Virus record (IMG/VR): IMGVR_UViG_3300045921_000054 | Span: 1-48,729 of that record | Direction: 5' to 3' (one strand) | DNA length: 48,729 bases | From: a virus | The notes under the pieces: generated by a model | What the model was told of the DNA's origin: nothing | Seen by the model: the letters and a program-made list of their open reading frames with translations, nothing else | Database searches by the model: none | Shown: positions 20,178 to 44,357 of the stretch, piece by piece | Position numbering within the stretch: position 1 is the stretch's first letter | Layout: every line of letters starts with the position of its first letter | Program-made: the position numbers and the translations under genes

Positions 20178-20396
20178 TTAATTTATTACAACATCTAATC
20201 CGAGAGAACCAGAGAGAGCAGCACACAGCTCAAGATCAGTCCATCCATCTGGGTTTTCCGCAATATCAGAGACTTCTTCTTGCTGAATAGAGACATTTCG
20301 GATAATCTCATCTCCTTCTGATACACGATACAACTGACAATACACGAGATCTTCAATTAAATTGACTTCATAGTTTCTCAGTGTCCAAGTTGGCAT
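20178..20396 (-). CDS. Small protein at the end of the fibre cassette, unknown function
   Basis: 72 aa, acidic, no membrane span. Contains two cysteines (VYCQLY, LELCAAL). The segment LRNYEVNLIEDLVYCQLYRV looks beta-rich and the end GSLGLDVVIN is hydrophobic. It starts 18 bases after the stop of the 255-aa gene with a TAGGAG-like ribosome site, so it is part of the fibre transcript. It may be a fibre accessory or chaperone, which is inference from position alone. Confidence 0.6.
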   Translation of the reverse strand: MPTWTLRNYEVNLIEDLVYCQLYRVSEGDEIIRNVSIQQEEVSDIAENPDGWTDLELCAALSGSLGLDVVIN

Positions 20397-20414
20397 TTTT
20401 ATCTTTCTCCTAAA

Positions 20415-21182
20415 TTAAGCATTTCTTGTAACCGTGGCTTCTGTGTCATACATAGCATTATCCGCTAATCTGACAAACCGTGCATAAGCAGTAAATGACT
20501 CAAATATATTCAATACGACTGGATGGTTATAGTAATTAGCAGTATCAAGCCGGTTTGTATCAGAACTTCGATCTGATGCACTCTCGTACCAACGAACTTC
20601 AAAGTCTGAAAGCACGAAACTTCTGTTGTTCAGATCAAATGACCAGCTACCAGTAATAGCCGGATTAAACAATGCATTATCTGGATCATACGTTAGTCTT
20701 AAGGTCAAATTACTACTACCACCCCCGCCGAATGTTCCAATAGATGCAAAGAACTCTGGAGTGTTATCGGGCAGTAAACTTCCACTAACACCAGGCGCTG
20801 GTGTTCCGTTATATGCTGGAGTAACTGACACGTCAAATTCGTGAGTGGCCCCAAGTGGATTACCAAGCGGTACAAAATTAGTGAAACTTACACTTGCCCC
20901 TGGGGGTGGAGAATCCAATTCAGCAAACCATGCATCAGCTGTATTTCTTTGAATCAAATGAGCCTTTGGTCCACGGGTAATAGTCGCTGTAAATTGAAAT
21001 ACTTGTGGATTATTGACGTAAGTAATTGTATCGTCTGGAAATCCAACCCAACTAATAGCAGAAATACGATAATCAGTCATTTTTGATCCGCTTTCTGATC
21101 CAGTCACGTGGTTAACAAAGCCTTGTCCTGCCACTCCTGTAAACCCTGATGCTCTAATTAATTCAGCTAAATTTAATACCAT
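20415..21182 (-). CDS. Probable fibre-associated virion protein, unknown family
   Basis: 255 aa. Starts with a helix (LNLAELIRASGFTG), then beta-rich, Gly/Ser/Thr/Asn-rich sequence with a GGGGSS turn near 153. No enzyme motif. Its ATG overlaps the stop of the S74 fibre by one base (TAATG), so it is co-translated with that fibre and may assist it or attach to it, as fibre-tip adhesins encoded after a fibre gene often do. No cysteine or signal peptide. Function is inferred only from context. Confidence 0.6.
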   Translation of the reverse strand: MVLNLAELIRASGFTGVAGQGFVNHVTGSESGSKMTDYRISAISWVGFPDDTITYVNNPQVFQFTATITRGPKAHLIQRNTADAWFAELDSPPPGASVSFTNFVPLGNPLGATHEFDVSVTPAYNGTPAPGVSGSLLPDNTPEFFASIGTFGGGGSSNLTLRLTYDPDNALFNPAITGSWSFDLNNRSFVLSDFEVRWYESASDRSSDTNRLDTANYYNHPVVLNIFESFTAYARFVRLADNAMYDTEATVTRNA

Positions 21183-23014
21183 TATCTCTTCTCCAATTGT
21201 TCAATTCGAGCTGTTAGTTCTTTGATACTCTCAATAAGTAGTGGAACAAGGGTGTCATAACTGACGCCTAGATATCCATTTGATCCCTCTGTAACTGCTT
21301 CAGGTGCCACCTTTTGTACCTCTTGAGCAATTACACCAAGACGCTTAGTTTCACTGTTTTTGAAGTTATACTGATACCCAGTAAGAGTATTCACCTTATC
21401 CAGTGCATTACTGATTGGAACCAAGTTTTCCTTCAGTCTAATATCAGAACTCAAGATGAAATCTGCTGCAGTAACATTACCATTTGAAGCTACAGTAACT
21501 CTGGTGGTATTACTAGTAGGTGTACCTGTTCTAAAGTACAGGTTAGAATCACCATTAACTATACCAATTAACCATCTATCAGCAACAGAGTCTTCAGTAA
21601 ATGATATCCAACCATTTCTACCCGAGTTTGGACGGATATGGTGTTCTACGGAGTTAACATTTCTTCTAGATGAGATACTACCACTGCTTGATGACAGCAA
21701 TACCTCAATTGCTGCTGTAGTTGATTCAGCTACTATAGCACCACCAGCAGTTATGTTTCTACCCAAGAACAAATCACGTGGACGATTTGCACCTGAGGCA
21801 CCTATATCATTAGTGTTATCTGTTGAGAATTGAATATTAGAATTGACTCGACCAGCAAATGTAATGCTATTAGCAGTAGAATCTCCGAGAGTAGTACTAC
21901 CATAGACCTTTACATTTCTGGTTAAATCTAATCTATCTACTCCATCCACATACTCCCAAACAACCATTTGAGCTGTAGAATCATACAGACCATAGGTGGT
22001 GCCAGCTGAGTTAAGATAATAGAGTATACGACGATTTGAATTTTGCAGATTATATCTGACTTGAACTGCTGATGAATTTCTGACCCAAATATCTTCACTG
22101 GTGCTAGTAATATCACCTGACGACAAGACACCACTACCAGTAATTGATCCACCTACTACTGCATTTCTACCCAAGAATAAATCACGTGGACGATTTGCAC
22201 CTGAGGCACCTATATCGTTGGTATTATCTGTTGTAAACTGAACATTAGAGTTGATTCGACCAGTTAGTGTGACTGTATCACTCGTAGCGTCACCTAAAGT
22301 AGTATTACCATTGATTGTTACGTTACCTTGAATTGTGGCATTACTATTAACAGATAGAGTACCAATATTACTCAAGTTAATCCAAGTGCCTGATCCAGTT
22401 TGAAAGTTAAGGAAATTAGAACCCAAATATAATCGGCCTACACCACCTGCATCTAATACTTGATATCCACCTCTAAATTCCCCATTGCTAGTACCAGTAA
22501 ACATCCACGTAGCACTTGGACCGGTGCCCATAATAACGTTGAATCCAATTGTGGAAACTGAGCCTGTTACTCCATAAGAAGTAGAATAGCCGTTTGATTG
22601 AATTCTAGTAGAAGCAATGACATCTGGTGACAACACACCACTACCAGTAATTGATCCAAGTGCATGCAGTCTACTTCCACTTACTTCAAGTAAACCACCT
22701 ATTCTAGTGGCTCCTTTGATGTAGGCACCATTTGTTGGTACTAATGAAGTATCTCCGTAATTATCCGATACAAGCAAATTACCAACACGTATACCTTGAG
22801 CAGCACCACCATTAAGCAGTTGAATTCCACCAGGGGCATGAATTTGAGAGTTCGTAAGTCGTAAATTTGAACCGGTAATAGGACCTGACGCATTAATTGA
22901 TGCTGGCGTAATGGTTTGGCCGTTGATCAAAGACACTACTTGAGCAGAACTTGATACAAGAGCAGGATATAAATCGTCTAAATTAAGAGTATTCAGTGTC
23001 TTAATATTACTCAT
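21182..23014 (-). CDS. Tail fibre/spike with C-terminal S74 intramolecular chaperone
   Basis: 610 aa. Residues 1-520 are a repetitive beta shaft: two copies of a segment with NDIGASGANRPRDLFLGRN, and a block with QIHAPGGIQLLNGGAAQGIR shared with the 1768-aa fibre. Residues 522-610 form the S74 endosialidase-type chaperone: SSDIRLKENL, LGVIAQEVQKVAPEAV, and a coiled-coil end IKELTARIEQLEKR. The candidate self-cleavage dyad is Ser523 and Lys528. The chaperone trimerises the fibre and is then cut off. It is the only S74 domain in the window. A CTATTTAT promoter lies 31 bases upstream of the ATG. Confidence 0.88.
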   Translation of the reverse strand: MSNIKTLNTLNLDDLYPALVSSSAQVVSLINGQTITPASINASGPITGSNLRLTNSQIHAPGGIQLLNGGAAQGIRVGNLLVSDNYGDTSLVPTNGAYIKGATRIGGLLEVSGSRLHALGSITGSGVLSPDVIASTRIQSNGYSTSYGVTGSVSTIGFNVIMGTGPSATWMFTGTSNGEFRGGYQVLDAGGVGRLYLGSNFLNFQTGSGTWINLSNIGTLSVNSNATIQGNVTINGNTTLGDATSDTVTLTGRINSNVQFTTDNTNDIGASGANRPRDLFLGRNAVVGGSITGSGVLSSGDITSTSEDIWVRNSSAVQVRYNLQNSNRRILYYLNSAGTTYGLYDSTAQMVVWEYVDGVDRLDLTRNVKVYGSTTLGDSTANSITFAGRVNSNIQFSTDNTNDIGASGANRPRDLFLGRNITAGGAIVAESTTAAIEVLLSSSSGSISSRRNVNSVEHHIRPNSGRNGWISFTEDSVADRWLIGIVNGDSNLYFRTGTPTSNTTRVTVASNGNVTAADFILSSDIRLKENLVPISNALDKVNTLTGYQYNFKNSETKRLGVIAQEVQKVAPEAVTEGSNGYLGVSYDTLVPLLIESIKELTARIEQLEKR

Positions 23015-23045
23015 AAAAATACCAAAATAAAAAGTGCGTCACTCT

Positions 23046-23053
23046 ATAAATAG
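23046..23053 (-). promoter_or_regulatory. CTATTTAT motif, putative late promoter for the S74 fibre
   Basis: Exact octamer followed by A, 31 bases before the ATG of the 610-aa fibre, in an 88-base gap. Confidence 0.62.
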
Positions 23054-23102
23054 GTAACGTACTTTATTAATAGTTTACTCAATAATCGATCTAAATATTA
23101 TT

Positions 23103-23819
23103 TTACCGAATTCGCATTCGATTGACTGTACCCGGTCTGATAGTCAACACATTTCTACCACCGGTCGGTCTAATTTTTATAGTTTCTGGGTTACCTGATT
23201 CGCTATTTGCTCCAACAACTCTAACAGCAACCATTAACGCAGGATCAAATATTGTACCACCACTCCAAGTATATGAATGAGTTACGGTTCCAACACCGTT
23301 TTTATTAGAAGCTACTAGTATACCAAAATTGTCTAGTGCTAATGCTGTAGCAATTTCTGATTGATTTGCTCCTATTGTTACAGACCTGCCGGTACCACCG
23401 GCTATATAAACACTAGTAACAAAATCATCGGATGTTACATTAGTAATATCTGCGGTTGTTGTAGTAGAACTAGAAACAACCTGAACATCGGACCAACCTG
23501 TTGCACTGGGAGAGGTAAAATACCATGCTATAGCTGTGCCATCTCCACCACCTGACCCACCCTTACTCATCACAAACTGTACATTACCGTTGTTTTCTAC
23601 AGGATTCACTATAGCAAACAACCCACGGCCTCCAGAAGTATTGTCTAATCTGGTCATAGTAGTACCACCGGCTGTTACAGAACTAATAGGGTTTCCTGAT
23701 TCGCCAATATTACCTGCAAAAAATACAATTTTATTGGGTCCGCCTGTTACAGGTAAGCTTACATTTAATGGACCTTCACTAAATCCATTGCTGCCCGTTA
23801 TAAAACCACCAAATGCCAT
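23103..23819 (-). CDS. Beta-sandwich virion protein, paralogue of the 249-aa protein
   Basis: 238 aa, Gly/Ser/Thr/Val-rich. The core follows a pattern also seen in the 249-aa protein: SSVTAGGTTMTRL, FAIVNPVENNGNVQFVMS and AIAWYFTSPS line up with ATLQGTSMTEI, FILAPTSTGVLNVQVL and IWCIAWEGVD. This looks like an adhesin-type beta domain. The C-terminal 28 residues (TIKIRPTGGRNVLTIRPG, then NRMRIR) resemble the N-terminus of the lectin-like proteins next door. No enzyme motif. Probably a virion surface or fibre-tip component. Confidence 0.6.
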   Translation of the reverse strand: MAFGGFITGSNGFSEGPLNVSLPVTGGPNKIVFFAGNIGESGNPISSVTAGGTTMTRLDNTSGGRGLFAIVNPVENNGNVQFVMSKGGSGGGDGTAIAWYFTSPSATGWSDVQVVSSSTTTTADITNVTSDDFVTSVYIAGGTGRSVTIGANQSEIATALALDNFGILVASNKNGVGTVTHSYTWSGGTIFDPALMVAVRVVGANSESGNPETIKIRPTGGRNVLTIRPGTVNRMRIR

Positions 23820-23837
23820 ATTGATCTCCCAAAAATA

Positions 23838-24719
23838 TTATTTTCTATAAACAACAACTCTATCAAATTCTACATCAGTGCCTGAGTATCCGGCCTGACC
23901 AACACCACCGCCCCACGTAGAGCATAGTTCTAAATTATTAAATGATGTTAGGTTTGGACCATAACTAAACGATACCAAATCACTATCGATTCTTAGGACA
24001 TCATCAAACCATACCTTACACACATCACCTCCGCCACCGCGTCTACACCACATTTGAATTTTTGTCCATTGCCCTCTTGGTAAACTAAAATTTGGATCAT
24101 GAAATAATCTAGTTGGAGTTGCGTGTCCTGAATTAAAATCTACGGTAAATTGGCCTGCTTCTCGCGTAGGAGTTAAATCTGATGTAGGATATACACCAGA
24201 TACACCTGCTACACGACCAGTCCCCAACCAACCTGATACTCCATCACCAAAAATTAACCATTTTATACCAGATGATGGAGGCCATAAAAAGTCTGGACCA
24301 AATCTACAAATAAACACCATAAATATTTCTTGAGTACTTTGTATTGCATTATTTAAAAATTTTGGCTCAGCACCATCAGGCGTACCATTATATGTTTGTC
24401 GTAAAATACGACCGTCCCCATTTGGATCGCCGGTCACACCACTAATAAATTCTGGTAAAGCTCCTGCTCTTGCAAATGCTTCGTCCCACCCATCTGAAGT
24501 ACGAGGTACACTAAAATCACCACTTGGTCCTGCAATTTGTAATTGATCTGACGCACTCCATGATCGGTCGGTCCACGTAGTCCAACCAGTACCAGGTCTA
24601 TTCGTCGTAGGTTCCCAATTTCCGCTAGGTGGGGGTTCTATTGGGGGACTAAATCCTAGTACTCGTACACTATTAACTCTGTTTGATCCACCGGGTCTAA
24701 AAATTATTTGATTTGACAT
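23838..24719 (-). CDS. Lectin-like (concanavalin A/polysaccharide-lyase fold) virion adhesin, paralogue 1
   Basis: 293 aa. One of three intact paralogues (with 274 and 299 aa). Common features: an N-terminal TDRSW or similar segment, ILRQTYNGTPDGAEP, a QEIFMVFICRF strand, KWLIFGDG, and near the end RGQWTKIQMWCRRGG followed by KVWFDDVLRIDSD and FDRVVVYRK. These are typical of jelly-roll carbohydrate-binding or lyase domains. No catalytic residues can be assigned. Probably binds or trims host surface glycans. The N-terminal 20 residues (IIFRPGGSNRVNSVRV) are a separate short beta signature. Confidence 0.65.
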   Translation of the reverse strand: MSNQIIFRPGGSNRVNSVRVLGFSPPIEPPPSGNWEPTTNRPGTGWTTWTDRSWSASDQLQIAGPSGDFSVPRTSDGWDEAFARAGALPEFISGVTGDPNGDGRILRQTYNGTPDGAEPKFLNNAIQSTQEIFMVFICRFGPDFLWPPSSGIKWLIFGDGVSGWLGTGRVAGVSGVYPTSDLTPTREAGQFTVDFNSGHATPTRLFHDPNFSLPRGQWTKIQMWCRRGGGGDVCKVWFDDVLRIDSDLVSFSYGPNLTSFNNLELCSTWGGGVGQAGYSGTDVEFDRVVVYRK

Positions 24720-24726
24720 AATAATA

Positions 24727-25476
24727 TTAATAAGTTGTGGTAATCCAACTGCTGCCGTTCCAATATTTTACCGGTTTGGTAACCCAACTAGTACCGTTCC
24801 ACACTTTGACAGGTTTAGCAACCCACGCGGTTCCAGTCCAAGTTTTTATTTGACCAGTTGGACTTCCACCGCTTGATAGACTAATATCAAATGTATTTGT
24901 ACCACCACTACGAATTGTTGGTTCCGCATTGGTGATTCGGCTGGAATATATGGGATTGTCACCAAATGTAGACAACATTGATTCAGAATCAATAATAGAT
25001 CCAAAAACAGCAACTATTGCATCATCTGAGTCATCAGTAATAGAGTAGAGGTTTGTTGCATACGCTGGATTAGCAGTAGTACCAGTAGAGTTGGAGAATC
25101 CAACAATTGGGGATTCGTCGTCCACACCCTCCCACGCAATACACCAAATCAAAGTGGGATCTGGACTTGAACCATTGTTATGAAGTACTTGTACATTTAA
25201 CACACCAGTACTTGTTGGTGCAAGAATAAAGTGGCGACTAGTAGTTTGTGATCCTCCACCCCATCCACTGGTGATTTCAGTCATTGAGGTTCCTTGAAGC
25301 GTAGCAGTGATATTGTTATTGCTAATGGTGTATCCACGAATCATTACAGATACCGTTACGAAGCAACCCTCTCCAAACGATGGTACATTAATTGTTGTGT
25401 TATGTGTACCCCCCCAATCAGCAGTATAGGTAGAAACTACGGGTGTTCCTTCATTGTTTTGTGGTCGTGCTGGCAT
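24727..25476 (-). CDS. Beta-sandwich virion protein with three Trp-Gly repeats at the C-terminus
   Basis: 249 aa. The body is homologous in pattern to the 238-aa protein. The last 40 residues are three tandem copies of a K-x-W-x-G-x-x-W-V unit: IKTWTGTAWVAKP, VKVWNGTSWVTKP, VKYWNGSSWITT. Such units occur at the ends of phage adhesins and may bind sugar or other fibre subunits. Clear AGGAG before the ATG. It follows the 1254-aa fibre directly (gap 21 bases) and is likely attached to it or expressed with it. Confidence 0.62.
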   Translation of the reverse strand: MPARPQNNEGTPVVSTYTADWGGTHNTTINVPSFGEGCFVTVSVMIRGYTISNNNITATLQGTSMTEITSGWGGGSQTTSRHFILAPTSTGVLNVQVLHNNGSSPDPTLIWCIAWEGVDDESPIVGFSNSTGTTANPAYATNLYSITDDSDDAIVAVFGSIIDSESMLSTFGDNPIYSSRITNAEPTIRSGGTNTFDISLSSGGSPTGQIKTWTGTAWVAKPVKVWNGTSWVTKPVKYWNGSSWITTTY

Positions 25477-25497
25477 ACGAATGTTTCTCCTAGAAAA

Positions 25498-28400
25498 TTA
25501 ATACAATCTCAGTGCATTCAGACTGGTTTGTGTGTTTGATTGAATACTTTCACTGGTCGAACCTGCACTTGTTGCACCAGCTAAGTAGAGTTGTGATCCA
25601 GAGGTGACGGTAACAATACCAGTAAGTGCTATTGTTGCCAACGAAGGATTTACAGATGGCATATACAAACTACCTGATGCGAATACGGACCCACCGAGTA
25701 TACCAAGTATTGATGTATAGGTTCTTGCAGTTGTTGCTGTTCTTCTGAACGTCATATGGCTGTTTACAAGGTATGTACCACTGTCGAGTGAAACAACTAA
25801 TCTATTGGATGTGGAACTGCCTGAATAGAACACGTTGCTAGCTGACATCGTAACTTCTGAAGTCAATGACGCAGTGTAGACTGATAAAGGTGGTGTATTC
25901 AGTGCATATGAACTTGTTCCTTGAAGTGATCCAGTAAATCCTGTTGTTGCAGTAACTGATCCAGTGACTACTAATCCATTCGGAAAGTCTACAGTACCAT
26001 CTATATAAGATGCTGTAGATGCGGTTTGTGCAAAACTTGCAGTTAGTGCATAAGAGCTAGAAACTCCACCTCCTCCACCATTGAGAGCATAACTTGCGGT
26101 AAGTGCATATGAACTAGAAGTTGCTACACTTGAACTTGCAACAGTCCAACTAGTTGCTTGAGCTGAAGAAGAAACTAGTCCTGTTGGTCTGTTGATCAAA
26201 TTATTGAAATTGGAACTATTTGCCCAAGAAGCTGAAGTTGCCACAGAGCTACTTGCCACTGTCCAGCTAGTTGCTTGTGCTGAAGAGGAAACTAGTCCTG
26301 TTGGTATGTTGATCAAATTATTGAAATTGGAACTGTTTGCCCAAGAAGCTGAAGTTGCCACAGAGCTACTTGCGACTGTCCAGGTTGACGCTTGTTGAGA
26401 ACTGGAAACAATTCCTGCTGGAATATCTAATAGACCTGTATAAGAAATTTGTCCAGAACTTGATACTAGTGTTGGTTTGTTAATTAAGTTATTAAAGTTT
26501 GATACATTTGCAAACGAAGCAGTTTCTGCAAAACTTGAACTTATTGAACTAGATGCCCAACTTGAAGAAACCGTTTGACCACCACTTCCACCATTGAGAG
26601 CATACGATGCAGTTAATGCATAACTAGAGGATATAGCAGAATCAGCATTACCGATATTACCACTAATAGAGCCAGTAATTCCACCTAATACTATTAGTGA
26701 ACCAGAAATAGTAAATCCACTAGGAAAATCAATTGCACCTGAAATATAACTTGCTGTTGCTGCGGTTTGAGCAAACGTAGAAGTAGAAGCAAATGAACTA
26801 CTTAGTGAGCTTGACGCCCAGCTAGAAGACTCAGAAGGCTGACCAGTTCCACCATTAAGTGCATAGGATGCGGTCAATGCATATGATGCACTAGCATTAA
26901 GTAAATTACTATATGTGGTAATACCGTTTACATCAAGTGAAATTACCGATGCAGATGCTTCAAGTGCTGTATTACTTGGCCCAAAGAAATCACTATAATT
27001 AATAGTGACCGAAGAACCTGATGTAACACTATAACGATAACTTGGATTATTACCATATGATCCGGTGACACCACGGAATGCACTGACAACTATATTTTGA
27101 GAATTATCAACTTCTAGATATGTTCTAGTTGTTGAATTTGTATCAACAAATCCACTTGCATAACAAGAATCTAACGTCAATCCTCGTGAGTTACTTACCC
27201 AGAAGTACTTACCTGGTCGATCTGGATCACCTATTGCAGATGCAACAGCTTCACCACCACAACCATTAAAGAATACATTTCTAATACCAACTAATCTATA
27301 TGCAGTTCGACAACTATCAGCAGCGGTATTGTAAAATCCAGAATAAGTGATGCCAGAGAGGAAAAATCCATTATAAACAGATCCATTTGCATATACTTCG
27401 TGAAGCGACAATGCGGTACCGCCTATGATACGAACTGCATCACCACCTGTATTATTGATACGAACTTGACTTATACGACCGCCTAATGCATTATTCCAAT
27501 GAATACCATAGGTACTCATTCCATCCATAAAAACTCGTTCAATAACATTGTGGTCGTGAGTTTCACGTGTACCATTGGTATAGTAAATACCAGTACAAGT
27601 TGCACCATCTATACCAACACCACGAATGGTCATATTACCAATATATGACCACAATACATCTGAACCAGAAATCATTGCACTTCCAGAGAAGGACAATCCG
27701 GTTCCTTCTGTTGCAGATCTTAATATTGTTGCATCAACACCTTCACCAACAAGAGCAATACTATTGCTCATAAACAAGGAACTTGAAATTGAGTAAGTTC
27801 CTTTTGGTAAGAAAACTATACCACCATTATTAAGTGACGCAGAATTAATTGCTGCTTGAATAAATGGACGAGCATCTTGATTTATTTGACCGGTGGCTCC
27901 AAATTGTTGAACGTTATATATTGTTTGGTACTGCCATGAACCAGATAAAACTTTACTTACTTCAGAAATAGAAGAAGATGCAACTGTCCAATTACTTGCT
28001 TGAGTTGAACTAGATACCAATCCAAATGGTATGTTAACTAAGTTGTTAAAATTTGATACATTTGCAAACGAAGCAGTATTTGTAAAACTTGCACTTACTG
28101 CTTGTGTTGCATAACTTGCAGTTAGTGCATATGAACTGGATACAGCACTGTCAGCATTAGAAATATTACCGCTAATAGAACCTGTAACACCACCAGTAAC
28201 AACAAGACTTCCTGTGATAACTAATCCATTTGGAAAGTCTACAGTACCATCTATATATGACGCAGTAACAGCGTTTTGAGCATTAGTAGCATAACTGGAA
28301 GTCAATGCATATGAACTTGAAACTCCACCTCCACCACCATTGAGTGCATAGCTTGCGGTAAGAGCATAAGACGAAGAAACTGCGTTACTGCTAGTACCTA

Positions 28401-29262: not shown

Positions 29263-29289
29263 TTCTTATGCTCAATGAGAGTATCTTAT

Positions 29290-35301: not shown

Positions 35302-35645
35302 TATGGAGCACCTACATTACTTTCAGTAACTCCAGGGTCAACTAGAATTTTGCCTTCTACAATACGGTACACTTCATCTGGATTTGGAGCAATGTTTGTA
35401 ACGATAATATCGTACAAATATTCTGGCTTAACTAGTAATCCAGTTTGATATGGTAATAGAGTGACGGTTATTCTTGAATTTGGGATATCTTTTTCAATTA
35501 TAAAATTAGTTATTGCTGGTTTTTTATAAGATTCCTTTATTGACCCGGAAAATTCCCAATTAACAAGATCTACTCCTGAACCAGAAAATGTCATAGTAGT
35601 TCTAAAAGTAGAATATTGATTTACGTTAAAATTTAAATCTGCCAT
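35301..35645 (-). CDS. Small Ig-like fibre connector (BppU N-domain-like)
   Basis: 114 aa. Beta-rich: FNVNQYSTFRTTMTFSG, VDLVNWEFSGSIKES, SRITVTLLPYQTG, YLYDIIVTNIAPN, then YRIVEGKILVDPGVT. This is the layout of small phage proteins and domains (BppU N-terminal type) that join receptor-binding proteins to the baseplate. It has its own promoter motif 28 bases before the ATG and a TAATG overlap with the 1338-aa fibre. So connector and fibre are probably made together, and it may be the fibre's adaptor. Family membership is by pattern only. Confidence 0.62.
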   Translation of the reverse strand: MADLNFNVNQYSTFRTTMTFSGSGVDLVNWEFSGSIKESYKKPAITNFIIEKDIPNSRITVTLLPYQTGLLVKPEYLYDIIVTNIAPNPDEVYRIVEGKILVDPGVTESNVGAP

Positions 35646-35673
35646 TCCTAGTCTCTATTTTAGAGTATCAGTT

Positions 35674-35681
35674 ATAAATAG
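35674..35681 (-). promoter_or_regulatory. CTATTTAT motif, putative late promoter for the connector/fibre pair
   Basis: Exact octamer followed by A, six bases after the 259-aa stop and 28 bases before the 114-aa ATG. Confidence 0.62.
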
Positions 35682-35687
35682 TGTAGA

Positions 35688-36467
35688 TTACAATCTAATA
35701 ACAACTGTTTGTGATGGATTATTGATAGAACCAACCGTAATCGGGGTACTTCCAGCAGTATTTACTGTGATAAATCTTCTTACTGGTGGCAATGTTTCAC
35801 CTATTCTTGGTGAATTGACAGCAGTACCAACCGCACCTCCAATAATATCAATTATATTACCAGACGATTCTTCCATTGGAAAATATCTGGCTAAATTAGC
35901 AGAGTATCTATTAGCAACTACTGTAGGATTTTCACCACCGAGTAATTCATCAACAGCTGAATTATTCAAAGAAGTTGTAAAATGTGCCAAATGAGCCAAT
36001 TCTCCATCTAAAAATCTATTGGCATTTAAATCACTGCGTCCACCTATTTGTAAATTTGATAATGTAAATGTGGGTCCAAAAGATCCTCCACTTTGAATGG
36101 TATTAGATCGTGATAATACAATATGTTCTACTAACCCACTAGTCCTACGTACAATAACAGGAGTCCACAACCCAACCCTTTCTGAAGCGGTTGGTGTAGT
36201 ACCACCACCACCAGAAGATTGAGGTCCATCACCGTCACTATCTAAAATAAAGACACGCCAATCATTTGTATTACCAGAAGGAGCAGTAAACAAATTAAGG
36301 CTATTTGGTGATGCAAAAACTCCACCTGACATAAAATATGAGGGGGTAGTACCACTATAACTAATATTTTTTACCCAGATTAACGTGGTAAAATCACCAC
36401 TAAAATCAAAATCCGAAACAGTGAAATTAAATCTATGTTGTGAAGCCCTAACAAATCGTCGTGCCAT
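35688..36467 (-). CDS. LamG/concanavalin A-like virion adhesin
   Basis: 259 aa. LamG-type pattern: FTTLIWVKNISYSG early, WTPVIVRRTSGLVEHIVLS in the middle, then LDGELAHLAHFTTSLNNSAV and ELLGG, which in LamG proteins mark the last strands. Asp and Asn turns could bind calcium. The C-terminal 27 residues (ITVNTAGSTPITVGSINN) recall the beta signature at the termini of the other lectin-like proteins. Starts directly after the 1768-aa fibre (gap of one base), so probably attached to that fibre. Confidence 0.68.
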   Translation of the reverse strand: MARRFVRASQHRFNFTVSDFDFSGDFTTLIWVKNISYSGTTPSYFMSGGVFASPNSLNLFTAPSGNTNDWRVFILDSDGDGPQSSGGGGTTPTASERVGLWTPVIVRRTSGLVEHIVLSRSNTIQSGGSFGPTFTLSNLQIGGRSDLNANRFLDGELAHLAHFTTSLNNSAVDELLGGENPTVVANRYSANLARYFPMEESSGNIIDIIGGAVGTAVNSPRIGETLPPVRRFITVNTAGSTPITVGSINNPSQTVVIRL

Positions 36468-36468
36468 T

Positions 36469-39400
36469 TTAATATCTCCTTACTATTTGCATTTGTTCTA
36501 ACCAGTTACTTGTATTAGTTCCTGGGCTAAATCCACTTAATCTAGCTCGTAATTGCCAATTAGAACGTTGATCCACTGAAGAAGATACTTGTTCAGTACC
36601 ACCATTGACTAAAAACACACTTGCTGACCAGTTAGGTTCAATAATAGCGTTGTTATCTGTACTCTTAAATATTTCGTTAAATACCAAGTAATCTGTTACA
36701 ACAGTACCATTATAATTAGTGTACAAATACAATATGCCGTGAACTAGATGTCGATATGCTGATGATCCAGCTGGATTTGGGTTTGCAGAAATATAAACAT
36801 CATACGCCACTGGACCACCATATGAAGAGCCTGTTCCATAATTTAAAAGTTGAGTAACATTCAATCCGGTGTCTATAATAGAGTGAGTTGTACTTGCATT
36901 AATATTACTGATAGATGTTCTGTAGAATATATTACCGAGTGATGCGCTTGGCTTTAGTGATGAAACATCTAGATTTTCAAGACTTTTTACATAACTTGCT
37001 GTTAGAGAATAACTAGAACTGAGAGAACTTGACGCCCAGCTTGCAGATTCGGCATTAGTAGCAAATGGCACGTCTCCTCCAATAGTACCACCAGGTGCAA
37101 GAATAAAGTCAGATGCATAGACTGCGCCTGATACAAATACAGAGCCAGTTACATTGACTCTACTGGAAGATGTACTACCTACGGTTAAGTTTCTTGCTAC
37201 AAAGATGTCACGTGGTCGATTTGAACCTGAGGCGCCTATATCATTGGTGTTATCTGTTGAGAATAAAATATTAGAGTTAACTCTTCCAGTAAATGTAATG
37301 GTATTACTAGTTAAATCACCCAATATGGTATTACCATAGACCTTTACATTTCTGGTTAAATCTAATCTATCTACTCCAGCTACATACTCCCAAACAACCA
37401 TTGCAGCTGTAGCGTCATACAAACCATAGGTAGTACCAGCCGAATTTAGATAGTAATATATGCGGCGATTTGAATTCTGTAGATTGTATCTGAGTTGAAC
37501 TGCAGATGAATTTCTGATCCAAATATCTTCGCCGGTGGTCGTAATTTCACCTGATGAAAGTATACCACTACCAGTAATTGATCCAAGTGCATGCAGTCTA
37601 CTTCCACTTACTTCAAGTAAACCACCTATTCTAGTGACTCCTTTGATGTAGGCACCATTTGTTGGTATGAGTGAGGCATCTGCATAATCATCCGATACAA
37701 GCAGATTACCAACTCGTATACCTTGAGCAGCACCACCATTAAGCAGTTGAATTCCACCAGGGGCATGAATTTGAGAGTTCGTAAGTCGTAAATTTGAACC
37801 AGTGATAGGACCAGATGCATTGATTGATGCTGGCGTAATGGTTTGACCGTTGATCAAAGACACTACTTGAGCAGAACTGGACACTAAGCCTGTTGGTCTG
37901 TTGATCAAATTATTGAAATTAGAACTGTTTGCCCAAGAAGCACTAATAGCATAACTTGATGATAATGAGCTAGATGCCCAACTTGCAGATTCAGCATTAG
38001 TAGCAAAGGGCACGTCGCCTCCAATAGTGCCACCTGGCGCTAGTATGAAATCCGACGCATAGACTGCACCAGAAACAAATACTGATCCGGTTACATTGAC
38101 TCTACTAGAAGATGTACTGCCTACCGTTAAGTTTCTAGCCAAGAACAAATCACGTGGTCGATTTGCACCTGAAGCACCTATATCATTGGTATTATCTGTT
38201 GAGAATAGGACATTAGAGTTGACTCTTCCAGTAAACGTAATAGTATTACCGATTACATCACCCAATATAGTATTACCATAGACCTTCACATTTCTGGTTA
38301 AATCTAATCTATCTAGTCCGGCCACATATTCCCAAACAACCATTGCAGCTGTAGAATCATACAAACCATAGGTGGTGCCAGCTGAGTTTAGATAGTAATA
38401 AATTCGGCGATTTGAATTTTGCAGATTATACCTGACTTGAACTGCAGATGAATTTCTGACCCAAATATCTTCACTAGTAGAAGTAATATCACCTGATGAA
38501 AGTATACCACTACCAGTAATTGATCCAAGTGCATGCAGTCTACTTCCACTTACTTCAAGTAAACCACCTATTCTGGTGGCTCCTTTGATGTAGGTGCCAT
38601 TTGTTGGTACTAATGAAATGTCTGAATATGCATCTGATACAAGCAGACCACCAACATTTATACCTTGAGCAGCACTACCATTGAAAAGTTGAATATTTCC
38701 CGGTGACTGAATTTGGGAGTTTGAGAGTCGTAGAGTTGAACCGGTAATAGGACCAGATGCATTAATTGATGACGGCGTAATGGTTTGACCGTTGATGAAA
38801 GATACTACTTGAGCAGAACTGGACACTAATCCTGTTGGTCTGTTGATCAAATTGAGAAAGTTTGAACTGTTTGCCCAAGAAGCACTAATGGCATAACTGG
38901 AGCTGAGTGAACTAGATGCCCAACTGGATGACTCAGAATTAGTAGCAAAAGGCACGTCACCACCAATAGTGCCACCTGGCGCTAGTATGAAATCCGACGC
39001 ATAGACTGCACCAGAAACAAATACTGATCCGGTTACATTGACTCTACTAGAAGATGTACTACCTAAAGTTGTATTTGATAATACTCTAGCACTTCCACTT
39101 ACTTCTAGAGAGGAGCTAATTCTAGTGTTACCCTTAATGTAGACACCGTTTGTTGGTACTAATGAACTATCTGTATAATCATTTGATACAAGTAGATTGC
39201 CAACTCGTATACCTTGAGCAGCACCACCATTGAGAAGTGAAATATTTCCCGGTGCATGAATTTGGGAGTTAGTGAGTCTTAGATTTGAGCCAGTGATGTT
39301 ACCCGAGGTATTAATTGATGACGGCGTAATGGTTTGACCATTGATCAAAGACACTACTTGATCTGAACTTGATACAAGTCCAGATGGTACATTGGTTAAA

Positions 39401-41775
39401 TTATTGAAGTTTGAACTATTTGCCCAACTTGAACTATTTGCCCAAGAAGCACTAATCGCATAACTTGATGATAATGAACTTGATGCCCAACTAGATGATT
39501 CAGAATTAGTAGCAAAGGGCACGTCACCGCCAATTGTACCACCTGGCGCTAATATAAAATCTGATGCATAGACTGCACCAGAAACAAATACTGATCCTGT
39601 TACATTGACTCTACTAGAAGATGTACTACCTACAGTTAAATTACTTGAAATAATTGAAGAACCACTAACATTTAATGTATTACCATCAAATGTAAGATTA
39701 GGTTCACCTGTTATTCCATTTGTAGAAGTGGCGGTTAAGACTCGGTTATCAGCACCATTGGTAAATGATGCTACCGGGAGCTGTAAGGAACTAGAAACTA
39801 ATCCATTTGGTTTGTTTGTTAAACCTAAGAAATTTGAACTGTTTGCCCAAGAAGCACTAATGGCATAGCTGGAACTAAATGAACTTGATGCCCAACTAGA
39901 TGATTCAGAATTAGTAGCAAATGGTACATCTCCGCCAATAGTACCACCAGGTGCTAGTATGAAATCCGACGCATATACTGCGCCTGATATGAACATTGAT
40001 CCTGTTACATTGACTCTACTAGAAGATGTATTACCTACGGTTAGGTTGTTTAAAACAATTGAAGAACCACTAACATTTAATGTATTACCATCAAATGTAA
40101 GATTAGGTTCACCTGTTATTCCATTTGTAGAAGTAGCGGTCAAAACTCGGTTATCAACTCCATTGGTAAATGATGCTACTGGAAGTTGTAAAGAACTAGA
40201 AACTAATCCATTTGGTTTGTTTGTTAAACCTAAGAAATTTGAACTGTTTGCCCAAGAAGCACTAATCGCATAACTTGATGACAATGAGCTAGATGCCCAA
40301 CTAGATGATTGTGAGTTGGTGGCAAATGGCACATCTCCACCAATAGTACCACCAGGTGCTAGTATGAAATCCGACGCATATACAGGCCCAGATACTATTA
40401 AAGAGCTACTAATAATTGCACCATTACTTGCTGTTAAAGCAGATGGTTTTATAATTTGTCCATTTATTCCTGCTATTATTTGAGCAGAACTACTTACAAG
40501 TCCTACTGGTTTGTCTACTATAGAAACCCAGTTAACATTTCCTCCTCCACCACCACTTCCAGAACCAATTCTTCTTTTAACAATTGAACCTGATTCATCT
40601 CTATCTGCTATCCACAGACCGTCTAATGTAGAAGGTGAACTTCCAGTTCTAAACCACATATCTCCGTGAAATAATACAGGTGGATCACTAAATAGTGGTA
40701 TAAATGAAATATGTGGTGAGCTTTCTGATGCATTAATAACAAACCCACGTCTATATGACTCTGTTACAGATGAACTATCAAATAAAGGATATATTACTAC
40801 TGATTGAAATGAGACATTTAAATTACTACCGGAAATATTAGATATAGAACCAGAAACTGCAACTTGAAATCCTTGTCTTGGATCACTTGTAAAAACTTGA
40901 TTAGTAAAATCAATTGGAGCTACAGCATAGAAAGAATATGGTTTATCTACTGAAAATGATGCAAATGGATGAAATCTAGCAGTTGCAATGTCAGCAATAG
41001 ACATTGACATTGAAGTAAATCCATTTTGTATTGGAATAGAGTTCCAGTTAGATCCATTAAAATAATGTAGTTTACCGCCATTAACAGGTGGTTGAATTGT
41101 ATTAGAATTTTGTAGCAAACGCATTGTTGGAGCCCATCCATCGGATATCAATGCGTTTATTTGAGCAGGTGTAGCCGGAGTTGCTGAGCTACCACTTACT
41201 AGCTGCCATACTGGATGTGGATTAACAGAAGATGATATGGAAGCAGCATTACCAGGGGGAGTTACAACTTTCCAGAAATATGGGTTTGTATCAGGCGTAG
41301 AATTTACGGTAACAGAGTTTCCTATTACAACTACTGAAGTAGTTGACAAGTATGGTTCAAAAAAAGGTAAAAGTGGATTTGTCTGAGTAAGTACATCTCC
41401 AACTGTTCTAACTAAAATTGGATATGGAACAGATGATGTAATATTAAATGTTTCTGTAATACTTACACTGCTAAAATCTGTACCAAATGGCAGTGCTTGT
41501 TTAAATACTGTTAGTGTATATACTGGTCCAACATCATTCCAAGTAGAACCGTTATCAGTAGAATATTGTACTTGTAAGTTAGCAATTGCATCTACTGATA
41601 AGGCTTCAGATGTCCAATCTATTGACAAAGAAAAATCAATACTGGCCGTATATGAACCTATTAATGCATTACCGGTACCAACTGCATTTACAGGACCGAC
41701 CCAAGTATCAGATGCATTATTTGTTTGTGAAACAATAGTAGGATTTGATGACCACGTAGTATCGATAAAACTCAT
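36469..41775 (-). CDS. Giant modular tail fibre (1768 aa)
   Basis: The largest gene in the window. The N-terminal 450 residues are beta-sandwich-like, non-repetitive and unique (TTWSSNPTIVSQTNNASD; LQVQYSTDNGSTWNDVG). From about 450 to 1610 it is built from repeated modules: YASDFILAPGGTIGGDVPF occurs six times, with ASWANSSNFLGLTNKPNGL, NLTVGSTSSSRVNVTGS and RDLFLARN units between. Some modules are shared with the 610-aa S74 fibre. The last 150 residues (LNVTQLLNYGTGSSYGG and beyond) form a separate head without an S74 chaperone. Its start overlaps the stop of the 860-aa gene by one base. Confidence 0.8.
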   Translation of the reverse strand: MSFIDTTWSSNPTIVSQTNNASDTWVGPVNAVGTGNALIGSYTASIDFSLSIDWTSEALSVDAIANLQVQYSTDNGSTWNDVGPVYTLTVFKQALPFGTDFSSVSITETFNITSSVPYPILVRTVGDVLTQTNPLLPFFEPYLSTTSVVVIGNSVTVNSTPDTNPYFWKVVTPPGNAASISSSVNPHPVWQLVSGSSATPATPAQINALISDGWAPTMRLLQNSNTIQPPVNGGKLHYFNGSNWNSIPIQNGFTSMSMSIADIATARFHPFASFSVDKPYSFYAVAPIDFTNQVFTSDPRQGFQVAVSGSISNISGSNLNVSFQSVVIYPLFDSSSVTESYRRGFVINASESSPHISFIPLFSDPPVLFHGDMWFRTGSSPSTLDGLWIADRDESGSIVKRRIGSGSGGGGGNVNWVSIVDKPVGLVSSSAQIIAGINGQIIKPSALTASNGAIISSSLIVSGPVYASDFILAPGGTIGGDVPFATNSQSSSWASSSLSSSYAISASWANSSNFLGLTNKPNGLVSSSLQLPVASFTNGVDNRVLTATSTNGITGEPNLTFDGNTLNVSGSSIVLNNLTVGNTSSSRVNVTGSMFISGAVYASDFILAPGGTIGGDVPFATNSESSSWASSSFSSSYAISASWANSSNFLGLTNKPNGLVSSSLQLPVASFTNGADNRVLTATSTNGITGEPNLTFDGNTLNVSGSSIISSNLTVGSTSSSRVNVTGSVFVSGAVYASDFILAPGGTIGGDVPFATNSESSSWASSSLSSSYAISASWANSSSWANSSNFNNLTNVPSGLVSSSDQVVSLINGQTITPSSINTSGNITGSNLRLTNSQIHAPGNISLLNGGAAQGIRVGNLLVSNDYTDSSLVPTNGVYIKGNTRISSSLEVSGSARVLSNTTLGSTSSSRVNVTGSVFVSGAVYASDFILAPGGTIGGDVPFATNSESSSWASSSLSSSYAISASWANSSNFLNLINRPTGLVSSSAQVVSFINGQTITPSSINASGPITGSTLRLSNSQIQSPGNIQLFNGSAAQGINVGGLLVSDAYSDISLVPTNGTYIKGATRIGGLLEVSGSRLHALGSITGSGILSSGDITSTSEDIWVRNSSAVQVRYNLQNSNRRIYYYLNSAGTTYGLYDSTAAMVVWEYVAGLDRLDLTRNVKVYGNTILGDVIGNTITFTGRVNSNVLFSTDNTNDIGASGANRPRDLFLARNLTVGSTSSSRVNVTGSVFVSGAVYASDFILAPGGTIGGDVPFATNAESASWASSSLSSSYAISASWANSSNFNNLINRPTGLVSSSAQVVSLINGQTITPASINASGPITGSNLRLTNSQIHAPGGIQLLNGGAAQGIRVGNLLVSDDYADASLIPTNGAYIKGVTRIGGLLEVSGSRLHALGSITGSGILSSGEITTTGEDIWIRNSSAVQLRYNLQNSNRRIYYYLNSAGTTYGLYDATAAMVVWEYVAGVDRLDLTRNVKVYGNTILGDLTSNTITFTGRVNSNILFSTDNTNDIGASGSNRPRDIFVARNLTVGSTSSSRVNVTGSVFVSGAVYASDFILAPGGTIGGDVPFATNAESASWASSSLSSSYSLTASYVKSLENLDVSSLKPSASLGNIFYRTSISNINASTTHSIIDTGLNVTQLLNYGTGSSYGGPVAYDVYISANPNPAGSSAYRHLVHGILYLYTNYNGTVVTDYLVFNEIFKSTDNNAIIEPNWSASVFLVNGGTEQVSSSVDQRSNWQLRARLSGFSPGTNTSNWLEQMQIVRRY
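37052..40385 (-). repeat. Six copies of a fibre module inside the 1768-aa gene
   Basis: Near-identical DNA encoding YASDFILAPGGTIGGDVPF lies near 37052, 38000, 38937, 39505, 39909 and 40316. Longer blocks at 37580-37865 and 38531-38815 match 22660-22935 of the S74 fibre gene. Confidence 0.85.
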
Positions 41776-44357
41776 TACACGCTCTCAGTTGTTATAACAA
41801 CAAAAAATGTAAGATACAAAGTATTTCCAACTCGATTTTCTGGTACTAATACTGGATATTTTACTAAAGGAGCAATTGGTAATGCTCCATTTGTTGATAC
41901 AAGTATATTTTGTTCTCTTACCAAAGATTGACCAGCCGCCGGGTTGGGAGTTTGATAACCTGTCCAGTCTGCTATACATCGAATATTATAATTCAATCTA
42001 TACAGACTTGACGCCGGTAATGATAACTCTTGTGCAACAAAAGTAACATCAGCATATATTATACCATTATTAATATGTATTCCACTCGGAACGTTTATAC
42101 TTGCAGAACTGACTAATGTTAAAGATTGTGTAATAAATGCATCGTAAATAGAAGAAGTTATAGAAGCATTAATTGGTGATTGTTGTATGGGATTTTCTGT
42201 ACCACGTGTGTATACACCAAACCTTGCTATTTGAGAATTCCATTCTCCTGCACTAACTCCATACTGACCTTTAGAGTCCTCAACATCTACAATATTACCG
42301 TATAATCGATCTACATAACGATCTGTAGTAGTACGTACTTTAACAGCTTCTGAACCACTAATAGAATTATTATCAATAATGGTACCCCTTACCAATAAAA
42401 TAAATTCTCCTGTAAGGGAATCGGTGTATCCTATTAATTTATCACTAATACCTATTTGAACTTGATTAGTATCTTTATCTGATACCACTATAAATGGAGT
42501 TTGTGGATCACCAACAGTTGGAGTTTCATTGTCTAAAACACCTAAAGTAAAAGATGATCCAGTTCGTTGACCAGATATTCCGCTAAGTAATGTTGGTTCA
42601 TAGATACCAGTGGATATTTTTGCTACAGCTCCACCATCTCTTGACACAACTTCAATTGTCCCTTGAAGTTTGTGGTCATCACCTTTGAATACAACATTTC
42701 CACCGTCAAAATATACCGGTTTACTTTCAATGGTAATGGGAACAAAATTATTATTGTGATCGTATAATTCTGCGTAAAATACTAAGTTTTCAAATCTACG
42801 ACCGATAATGGGAACAAATGATTCGGCTCTATTTGGAGTAAAACCACTTTCTACCGCAAGTTCAATAGAAATATCAGAAATATACCAATTAGCATTATAA
42901 CTGACAAAATATGGTTTAATATCTGCACTGAGTGGTGCAGTAAACTCTGCCTCTACATCTAAAAATTGTTGTGTTTTAGCACCAGAAGGTGATATAAGTT
43001 CTATTATTTGAGTACCAATTCCTTCTGGTGATAAAAATCCGTCACCAACAATTCTTACATCAAATTTAGAATCATACTCACTACTATTCTTTACTGCTAC
43101 AGCATTAAAACGTATCTTATACGTACCATCTTTTACAACCGGCAAACTACCTGATATTGTAAAATATGCTCTTGGAGTAGAAGAATCTACAGTATTCAGT
43201 ATAGAATCAGTAATGGCTACAGAATCCATTAACCATGCAGTAGATCCTTCTACAACTACATTTGATGGAGTAAATGCATAAATTTTAGGAATATTGGAGA
43301 TTTCTGTAATACTTCCAGTTTCCCAATAACCTGTAAAAATATTAAATCTATCAAATTTTCCTCTGTCAATATACCCACGACCTGTAAAAGTACAATTTTT
43401 GTAACGTAACAATGACGTATTTTCAATTGAAAAATCATCAATCAATTGAGGTTGAGTGAGTGTATCAATGCTTCGTACAAATACTTTTACTCTAGCAATA
43501 TCACCAGATACAGTCTCTAAATTGTTAAGTGATATGTCTGCATATGAACGAGTAAGTAATGTTGGTAAAAATGCTGGTCGTGGATTATACGTTGTAGTAA
43601 AAGAACTTGCTATAAGAGAAGTAACTTGACCAGAACTTCCTGTATATTGTGGTTGAACTTCTATTGTAGTGTCATTTATTACACGTGTAATAGTAGGTCT
43701 GTAATTGTATCCAAATATTGTAATAGTTGCTCCTTCCATACTAGATGAAAAATATGGAGCAGTGGACTTTAATGTGTAAGAACCCAACGAATCTGATAAT
43801 AGTCTACGATTATTTGGAATACCAAAAATCTGTGGACCTATACTACTGGTTGTTACTTTCGTTTGTGGTTCAAAATATGGCGTTAAAACTTCTTGAACTG
43901 TTATAGTAGGTTTTTTATACAGTCTAATTTTGTTTGTGTTAAGTGCAGTAGGTATAATTGTTACATCTCGTGTCCACTTAACATTATATTTTCCAACCCA
44001 CTCATCAGGAACACTATTACCATTTAAATCACTACGAGCTTCACCCAAAATAGTGATAGAACCAATTCCTGCGGGTGTCTTATTGTAAATCTCAACTACA
44101 ACAAGTCTAGACAATCCCTCAATATATTTTGCAATAGGCTGAACAAATATTGGGTTGCCTTCACTATCCAATATTTCAATTAATACTTCTGTTGTAGGCT
44201 TTAAATATTCCGACCCTTCTATTAGAAAAGAATTTTTCCCACCAGAAAATATGTTTGGAAATTCACTTATTCTAAAATAATCTGACGTTGGGGAAGAATC
44301 AGTTATCCAAGTTCGATACCTATTAAGATTTCTTAAGGTAACTTCTTTAACAGTCAT
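41775..44357 (-). CDS. Large virion structural protein, probable baseplate-to-fibre connector
   Basis: 860 aa, no enzyme motif, beta-rich with many short Ig-like segments: FLIEGSEYLKPTTEVLIEIL, VVVEIYNKTPAGIGSITIL, TITVQEVLTPYFEPQTKV, TITIFGYNYRPTITRVI. Such chains occur just upstream of fibre genes in large myoviruses and may be the rigid connector of fibres to the baseplate. It contains no Ser/Ala shaft repeats, unlike the next gene. It is the first gene after the tube terminator and has its own promoter motif 29 bases upstream. A tail-fibre hinge or baseplate wedge are the alternatives. Confidence 0.6.
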   Translation of the reverse strand: MTVKEVTLRNLNRYRTWITDSSPTSDYFRISEFPNIFSGGKNSFLIEGSEYLKPTTEVLIEILDSEGNPIFVQPIAKYIEGLSRLVVVEIYNKTPAGIGSITILGEARSDLNGNSVPDEWVGKYNVKWTRDVTIIPTALNTNKIRLYKKPTITVQEVLTPYFEPQTKVTTSSIGPQIFGIPNNRRLLSDSLGSYTLKSTAPYFSSSMEGATITIFGYNYRPTITRVINDTTIEVQPQYTGSSGQVTSLIASSFTTTYNPRPAFLPTLLTRSYADISLNNLETVSGDIARVKVFVRSIDTLTQPQLIDDFSIENTSLLRYKNCTFTGRGYIDRGKFDRFNIFTGYWETGSITEISNIPKIYAFTPSNVVVEGSTAWLMDSVAITDSILNTVDSSTPRAYFTISGSLPVVKDGTYKIRFNAVAVKNSSEYDSKFDVRIVGDGFLSPEGIGTQIIELISPSGAKTQQFLDVEAEFTAPLSADIKPYFVSYNANWYISDISIELAVESGFTPNRAESFVPIIGRRFENLVFYAELYDHNNNFVPITIESKPVYFDGGNVVFKGDDHKLQGTIEVVSRDGGAVAKISTGIYEPTLLSGISGQRTGSSFTLGVLDNETPTVGDPQTPFIVVSDKDTNQVQIGISDKLIGYTDSLTGEFILLVRGTIIDNNSISGSEAVKVRTTTDRYVDRLYGNIVDVEDSKGQYGVSAGEWNSQIARFGVYTRGTENPIQQSPINASITSSIYDAFITQSLTLVSSASINVPSGIHINNGIIYADVTFVAQELSLPASSLYRLNYNIRCIADWTGYQTPNPAAGQSLVREQNILVSTNGALPIAPLVKYPVLVPENRVGNTLYLTFFVVITTESV

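Follow-up and report, generated by a model that had tools for sequence, protein, structure and literature searches.

A probable variable receptor-binding locus with exchanged fibre shafts beside the tail tube of a T4-like contractile-tailed virus

The IMG/VR virus record IMGVR_UViG_3300045921_000054, a fragment analysed here over its full length of 48,729 bp (the window), comes from a T4-like contractile-tailed virus. Positions 20178-44357, which make up 24,180 of the 48,729 bases and lie entirely on the minus strand, hold a cassette of 14 genes: four for fibres, one for an anchor-like protein of 114 aa, one for an 860-aa protein and eight small ones. This cassette is taken, with reasonable confidence, to be the variable receptor-binding locus of the virus, in which a conserved frame surrounds an adhesin block of 24-27 kb, with shafts that were exchanged between fibres and tips that differ. 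Its coordinates and open reading frames (ORFs) agree with those of an initial annotation, which had assigned about half of the window to fibres and lectin-like proteins. The span holds, but the lectin label is weak, and nothing marks the 860-aa gene, although it lies within the range, as a fibre or lectin.

A conserved frame around a replaced cassette

All main genes of the record lie on the minus strand. In order of transcription the cassette consists of the 860-aa gene, the 1768-aa fibre, the 259-aa and 114-aa genes, the 1338-aa fibre, the 299-aa and 274-aa genes, the 1254-aa fibre, the 249-aa, 293-aa and 238-aa genes, the 610-aa fibre, and the 255-aa and 72-aa genes. To its right, read inward, stand a weakly gp15-like 255-aa gene, an 82-aa coiled-coil-like gene, the tail sheath and the tail tube. 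To its left, read outward, follow an 86-aa coiled-coil-like gene, an SNF2-type helicase, the baseplate hub and lysin-like tail proteins, with UvsX, an exonuclease and a DnaB helicase farther out.

47752..48519, minus, 255-aa protein with a weak match to the T4 gp15-like sheath stabiliser (PF16724 E 0.008, below cut-off); conserved right flank, homologs of 40-47% identity in four relatives
47429..47677, minus, 82-aa coiled-coil-like protein, paralog of 19414..19674; conserved flank
45062..47398, minus, tail sheath (PHROG 23 E 1.1e-67; PF04984/PF17482)
44515..45003, minus, tail tube, gp19-like (PHROG 4542 E 4.3e-22); 59-60% identity in relatives
19414..19674, minus, 86-aa coiled-coil-like protein at the left border, paralog of 47429..47677
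17390..19285, minus, SNF2-type helicase (PF00176); 53-54% identity, near full length, in two relatives; conserved left flank
16591..17352, minus, baseplate hub (PHROG 150 E 1.1e-18); 41-44% identity in two relatives; conserved left flank
4024..5139, minus, UvsX-like recombinase (PHROG 97 E 1.6e-63), a possible agent of repeat recombination

A search with the tube as query found 66 IMG/VR loci which, together with two stretches from the 'phages' set, gave 68, of which 49 hold both tube and hub. Tube and hub are less than 400 bp apart in 31 of the 49, none of which was seen to have a fibre block there, and the remaining loci mostly carry other genes at this place. This set suggested an insertion unique to the window, a reading that was dropped when fibre blocks turned up at that position in nearer relatives. 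These relatives were drawn from at least 120 stretches matching a degenerate shaft-peptide pattern; compared loci are referred to below by G or L labels. Among the matches listed, the complete frame is present in the window and in G010, while G002 spans the 114-aa gene to the hub and G006 the sheath to the helicase. The block between the tube (or the 114-aa gene, where the contig starts there) and the hub spans roughly 27 kb both in the window and in G002, and 32 kb in G010, and flank proteins of the relatives are 27-60% identical to those of the window.

The cassette itself is not the same in its relatives, as the initial annotation had anticipated for a varying repertoire. The 114-aa gene alone recurs in all five stretches compared (phmmer E 5e-9 or better), a homolog of the 860-aa gene is found in one of the five, the 1768-, 1338- and 1254-aa fibres match in part, and nine of the 14 genes have no match at E 1e-3; the five stretches differ in extent, so that some of these gene absences are not informative. 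Because the same flanks are kept while nearly the whole cassette is replaced, the locus is, on this comparison, a fixed position whose contents get replaced. No close relative of the window was found, and IMG/VR scans with the 860-aa, 299-aa, 1338-aa, lectin-alignment and helicase queries gave no confirmed relative.

Exact tracts between paralogous shafts

The shafts of the fibres are Ser/Ala/Thr-rich repeats and the C-termini differ.

36469..41775, minus, 1768-aa fibre with an N-terminal region of ~410 aa, repeated shaft modules and a 179-aa tip
31285..35301, minus, 1338-aa fibre; follows the anchor gene as the first fibre, an order also seen in relatives
25498..29262, minus, 1254-aa fibre with an internal beta-helix and its own tip
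27340..27918, minus, pectate-lyase-like beta-helix, aa449-641 of the 1254-aa fibre (PF12708 E 6.7e-19)
21182..23014, minus, 610-aa fibre, with modules in common with the 1768-aa fibre
21290..21448, minus, Peptidase S74 intramolecular chaperone, aa523-575 of the 610-aa fibre (PF13884 E 3.1e-17, whole profile)
26045..26169 and 33776..33900, no strand assigned, 125-bp exact tract of the 1254- and 1338-aa fibres, the longest run (permutation p 0.001)
22788..22873 and 37715-37800, no strand assigned, 86-bp exact tract of the 610- and 1768-aa fibres (permutation p 0.014)

A single shaft design, as first annotated, gave way to two families, the 1254/1338 pair and the 610/1768 pair, with exact matches of only 32-42 bp between them; as an internal negative control, no exact 20-mer is common to the 1254- and 610-aa or the 1338- and 610-aa genes. 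The finer claims of that annotation were borne out: the 1254- and 1338-aa genes have shaft DNA in common below different heads, the 1254-aa fibre carries a beta-helix insert, and the 610- and 1768-aa fibres have a module set in common with S74 in the former only.

Codon-level comparison gave 24 blocks common to the 1254- and 1338-aa genes. The largest joins aa135-321 of the former to aa937-1123 of the latter (187 residues, 89% amino-acid and 86% DNA identity), and the second joins aa947-1112 to aa383-548 (166 residues, 87% and 85%). Since these two lie in reversed order, a simple whole-gene duplication does not account for them. Synonymous differences per site were 0.30-0.45 in the 12 between-gene blocks listed and 0.26-0.67 among repeats inside the 1254- or 1338-aa gene; copies are about as alike between the two genes as within them. 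In the second family, aa19-129 of the 610-aa fibre correspond to aa1297-1407 of the 1768-aa fibre at 92% DNA identity, and the closest repeat pair lies between the genes (pS 0.17, 25 of 333 bases differing), compared with 45 of 333 for the closest copies inside the 1768-aa gene.

Within the blocks identical bases are clustered. The 125-bp tract and a second between-gene tract of 107 bp (p 0.001) lie in blocks that are only ~85-86% identical overall, and the longest exact run between genes (125 bp) exceeds the longest within one gene (98 bp). Over 17 shaft blocks, the longest exact run had p ≤0.005 in seven and p >0.4 in three; the permutation shuffles differences within codon positions and ignores local selection, so that it lends support but does not settle the matter. 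Exact runs between fibre genes of the sister cassettes reach at most 38 bp in G002 and 45 bp in G006 and stay below 25 bp in G010 (seven genes), which makes the window the extreme of the four. In a tree of a 39-aa unit (12 copies) the five 1768 copies cluster together, while the 1254 and 1338 copies are not grouped by gene (three changes each, with 500/500 and 166/500 shuffles as low). The non-collinear blocks, the 1254/1338 copies unclustered by gene and the exact tracts within blocks of 85-92% identity together support, as history read from the sequence, an exchange of DNA between the paralogous shafts.

Two of the fibres carry further domains. The beta-helix of the 1254-aa fibre scores 69 bits against a curated cut-off of 27 and resembles the mannuronan epimerases AlgE6 and AlgE4 (E 8e-6 and 2e-5) over only ~140 residues; the domain is enzyme-like. 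The S74 match near the C-terminus of the 610-aa fibre scores 63.1 bits against a cut-off of 22, and a Pfam profile search found no such domain in the 1768-aa fibre. S74 domains autocleave at a conserved Ser within the motif SD.RLK. The 610-aa sequence contains SDIRLKE, and this fibre probably matures through the self-cleaving chaperone. Its aa477-609 also match the phage long-tail-fibre entry 6f45 (E 1.5e-4), which we take to be a subunit of the S16 long tail fibre.

Fibre tips and a candidate fibre anchor

The C-terminal tips were searched separately, as the last 136 (1254), 144 (1338) and 179 (1768) residues. No similarity was detected between the tips of the 1254- and 1338-aa fibres (best E 0.73) or those of the 1768- and 1338-aa fibres (E 1.6), and the tips of the 1254- and 1768-aa fibres had no match in the 'phages' set and nothing convincing among the collected loci.

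25501..25908, minus, tip of the 1254-aa fibre, aa1119-1254; no relative found
31288..31548, minus, tip of the 1338-aa fibre, aa1252-1338; also present at the C-terminal end of the tail fibre of Alteromonas phage AD45-P4

In the 'phages' set the 1338 tip has matches in six records, five of which are Alteromonas AD45 phages, with 31.5% identity over 90 residues (E 2e-6), and the match reaches the last residue of the AD45-P4 tail fibre. A comparison of the remaining 1,147 residues of that fibre with the 1338-aa fibre gave no similarity at E 0.01, and the gene neighbouring it is annotated as N4-like. The sequence comparison thus supports a single case in which one tip sits on an unrelated shaft, in a phage of another kind. 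The whole 1338-aa query had no match in the 'phages' set, while the tip alone did, a null result attributed to the low-complexity filter, which hides shafts.

The gene directly ahead of the 1338-aa fibre encodes a candidate anchor.

35301..35645, minus, 114-aa fibre-anchor candidate with an Ig fold of the T5 p132/BppU-N type (PHROG 3304 E 1.6e-8)

An AlphaFold2 model built from six sequences reached a pLDDT of 79 and a pTM of 0.71. Among solved folds it was matched best by chains from the tail tip of T5 and the baseplate of DT57C (Foldseek E 9e-8), which superpose with Z 12.5 at 2.1-2.2 Å over 108 of the 114 residues (next rows 10.6 and 8.8) and are read, from chain length and entry, as the collar protein p132. 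In T5 a p132 dodecamer carries the side fibres, and Linares et al. 2023 regard the p140 and p132 genes as a landmark confined to T5-like phages (PMC10038345). Predicted folds in BFVD resembling that of the 114-aa protein occur in Synechococcus and Sinorhizobium phages, among others, and the fold is therefore not unique to the T5-like group. Given the p132-like fold of the model and the role of T5 p132 in carrying side fibres, the 114-aa protein is likely a collar or adaptor for the 1338-aa fibre.

Could the four fibre genes instead encode successive segments of one or two compound fibres, as T4 gp34-gp37 do, so that the C-termini are joints or a single tip? This arrangement is less likely than separate fibres, yet is the best placed of the alternatives. 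The long fibres of T4 are multi-gene (PMC6957217). At its N-terminus the 1338-aa fibre, which follows the 114-aa gene, is similar to its G002 counterpart (a weak signal, p 0.002 for one comparison out of 24), and the N-terminus of the 1254-aa fibre is shaft-like, as in an unanchored segment. Against it, the match of the 1338 C-terminus lies at the extreme end of a tail fibre from another phage, as expected of a tip. The 610-aa fibre ends in an S74 chaperone, a domain that sits at the C-terminal end of a trimer, and every fibre is trailed by one or more small genes of its own.

Small genes behind the fibres

Behind each fibre gene stand one to three small genes, amounting to seven plus a 72-aa gene for four fibres.

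35688..36467, minus, 259-aa laminin-G/ConA-like candidate lectin (PF13385 E 5.1e-4; 20.7 bits, below the curated cut-off of 27.6)
30361..31260, minus, 299-aa small protein, paralog of 23838..24719
29302..30126, minus, 274-aa small protein, doubtful third paralog of the 293/299-aa pair
24727..25476, minus, 249-aa small protein with C-terminal WNG-W repeats like those of Rhodobacter phage proteins
23838..24719, minus, 293-aa small protein, paralog of 30361..31260
23103..23819, minus, 238-aa small protein; no family matched
20415..21182, minus, 255-aa small protein of the cassette; no family matched
20178..20396, minus, 72-aa protein; only a sub-threshold Pfam match (E 5e-4)

The 293- and 299-aa proteins are 31% identical. 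With the 274-aa protein they match no Pfam or PHROG family at threshold, and their sole PDB sequence match has E 0.17 over 20 residues. The 238-, 249- and 255-aa genes likewise match no family, with chance-level Pfam values of E 8.3 (249-aa) and 0.23 (255-aa). No PHROG or Pfam family, gp38 included, was found for the small genes save the weak laminin-G match of the 259-aa protein. The annotated layout of large fibres trailed by small genes was confirmed in its arrangement; the lectin label is unproven from these sequences, and the 114-aa gene is an Ig-fold anchor candidate rather than a lectin.

Judged by position and size only, the small genes most likely encode adhesins that bind the fibre tips or else fibre chaperones, comparable to S16 gp38 or Mu Tfa, and together with the fibres they probably recognise host cells. 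That they are solely assembly chaperones which leave the virion is a somewhat weaker alternative than the compound fibre. In T4, Mu, R-pyocins and Alteromonas phage V22 a chaperone or accessory protein is encoded immediately after the fibre gene (PMC7289586), as this alternative would have it. Seven small genes and the 72-aa gene for four fibres, and the resemblance among three of the small genes, fit it poorly, as do the weak laminin-G likeness of one small gene and the clear laminin-G genes behind the fibres of G010 at the same locus (E 1e-16).

A docking tag was considered, on the basis of similar Ile/Arg/Pro/Gly/Asn-rich ends on five small proteins. Five of 84 terminus pairs had p ≤0.02 against shuffles, where ~2 were expected (internal control 10/400), and two of the five fit the idea; a profile search found no further members. 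The idea was not adopted. Separately, the WNG-W repeats of the 249-aa protein (aa208-245; window 24742-24855) are 71-74% identical to Rhodobacter capsulatus phage proteins, and represent a short repeat common to unrelated phages.

Exchange, old duplication and mechanism

Several observations weigh against a modular receptor-binding locus with exchanged shafts. G001, G002, G008 and G009 are near-identical (0-0.19% mismatches; G008 covers ~9.9 of the 14.6 kb aligned), with one 72-bp in-frame shaft indel and no tip change. In both G002 and G006 the second and third fibres have one tip in common (50-57%), the opposite of the window and of what tip swapping would leave. Homologs of the 299- and 293-aa genes were not found, including in the IMG/VR scans and with the lectin-alignment query, and AlphaFold2 failed for the 299-aa protein (mean pLDDT 30). 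The tree of the 39-aa repeat has no strongly supported branch, and the non-clustering of its 1254 and 1338 labels could also come from an old duplication.

Such a duplication, its copies held similar by selection with no present exchange between genes, is considered unlikely as the origin of the common shafts. Nonsynonymous divergence is low, with pN of 0.03-0.10 in the main blocks against pS of 0.17-0.46 between genes, and both the poorly supported repeat tree and the lack of tip variation in the four near-identical relatives would agree with it. It does not readily yield exact tracts of 125, 107 and 86 bp, clustering at p ≤0.005 in seven of 17 blocks, a between-gene tract longer than any within a gene, or a non-collinear block order.

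The modular receptor-binding locus is preferred. The recombining repertoire of the initial annotation stands as far as it is modular, by its domain content, its position next to tail tube and sheath and the replacement of the cassette, and as far as past recombination at the shafts is concerned; current reshuffling, or alternative tips in the population, is not supported. The comparison with relatives that it had proposed for head swaps gave a replaced cassette and the 1338 tip on an unrelated fibre, with no tip change among the four near-identical records.

Sheath and tube on one side, and the coiled-coil gene, SNF2 helicase and baseplate hub gene on the other, frame the block. In the proposed mechanism the 114-aa Ig-fold protein, judged by its fold and by its position ahead of the first fibre gene, would probably form or join a collar bearing long trimeric fibres, whose different C-terminal tips would recognise hosts. 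Homologous recombination in the shaft repeats is the likely process, perhaps through the virus's own UvsX, and at least one tip, that of the 1338-aa fibre, is shared with an unrelated phage. A bolder extension is doubtful: a self-contained tip-shuffling array in which a p132-type collar takes interchangeable fibres and exact shaft tracts of up to 125 bp serve as homology arms for UvsX, moving tips, enzyme domains and small cap genes and taking tips from unrelated phages, all without a dedicated recombinase. A dedicated diversification system (invertase or diversity-generating retroelement) reshuffling the tips is very improbable: multiple tips and repeats are what such systems use, but the 48,729-bp fragment has no match to reverse transcriptase (PF00078) or serine invertase/resolvase (PF00239) and no tyrosine integrase was found in it, and its inverted repeats are only 20-27 nt long and 78-90% matched.

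The 860-aa gene and further features of the record

41775..44357, minus, 860-aa protein, first cassette gene, between the tube and the 114-aa gene together with the 1768- and 259-aa genes

Among the matches listed, all nine other records containing both the tube and the 114-aa homolog have the two side by side and then a fibre-like gene, whereas in the window they are separated by 8.9 kb. Homologs of the 860-aa protein occur in G010, Microcystis phage Mel-JY01 and a 484-kb uncultured phage, in all three downstream of primase-like and AAA genes, the latter read as SbcC-like: next to them in G010, one gene farther on in Mel-JY01 and several genes farther on in the 484-kb phage. In G010 a fibre gene follows two genes after the homolog. 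The likeliest account, drawn from one window, is that the block of 860-, 1768- and 259-aa genes moved beside the tube from a second fibre locus in this lineage.

The same two phages are the only ones in the 'phages' set with sheath matches covering at least 80% (484-kb phage, 43%; Mel-JY01, 42%). The 484-kb phage (LR756508, L075) has two distinct sheath paralogs, at 16512-18986 and 20001-22475, 32% and 43% identical to that of the window. Coiled-coil-like paralogs of 86 and 82 aa (28% identity) flank the tail/adhesin block of the window at both ends; relatives have one coiled-coil-like gene ahead of the sheath and another short gene ahead of the helicase. At window positions 19711-20081 a 58-aa ORF with the look of a single membrane span (MEILAALLVIGITVGIVIF...) occurs in two tandem copies ~217 bp apart, the downstream one split into 40- and 20-aa pieces. 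No tRNA genes and no Rfam families at gathering scores were found in the record, and promoter and terminator scans gave no excess over shuffled sequence.

Among the relatives, G006 differs from the group of G001, G002, G008 and G009 more in its fibres (59-70% over 45-101% of length) than in its tube (98%) or sheath (82%). A radical SAM protein (PF04055 E 1.4e-15) lies between fibres and helicase in G002 (L197 6096-7415) and in the equivalent part of G006, accompanied by several HTN/HTD-rich repeat ORFs and a collagen-like protein, a set which may serve to modify repeat proteins. In G010 the same variable locus contains a GlcNAc-type glycosyltransferase (PF11397 E 8e-75; L198 10173-11438). Because L011, L013, L015 and others fill the tube-hub gap with gene sets that have no fibre-like look, this gap may be a general insertion site.

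Comparison with known systems

A modular receptor-binding locus is of a well-known kind; what sets this one apart is that it combines shaft tracts exchanged within one genome and a large number of adhesin genes with a T5-type anchor in a virus with a contractile tail. Modular tail fibres have mostly been compared between phages, and here the exchange tracts lie in paralogous shafts within one virus, so that it becomes testable whether a phage tries out new tips by recombining through its own shaft repeats. A T5-type collar anchor is placed ahead of the fibres of a contractile-tailed virus, and the position after the tail tube offers a spot for mining the fibre repertoires of this uncultivated group.

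The closest parallel is the gp37/gp38 locus of the T4 superfamily, including the S16 adhesin, where a long fibre gene is likewise followed by a small gene assisting or capping the tip. The T4-type sheath and tube and the 610-aa fibre end matching long-tail-fibre entry 6f45 add to the likeness. Here, however, four fibres and seven to eight small genes stand in one block beside the tail tube, and the small genes matched no gp38 family in the profile searches. The p132 of T5 and DT57C matches the modelled fold of the 114-aa protein and its gene also adjoins a fibre gene, but the virus studied here has a contractile T4-like tail. In the tailspike clusters of Ackermannviridae (tsp1-tsp4) several receptor-binding genes are also gathered in one locus, and recombination between paralogs alters the gene set (PMC11414711); those tailspikes are joined through conserved N-terminal domains, whereas here the shafts and not the N-termini are held in common. 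Finally, marine T4-like cyanophages carry a hyperplastic region between g15 and g18, a variable block inside a conserved tail module (PMC2984593), while the block described here sits after the tube gene, between 17352 and 44515, and holds adhesins rather than metabolic genes.

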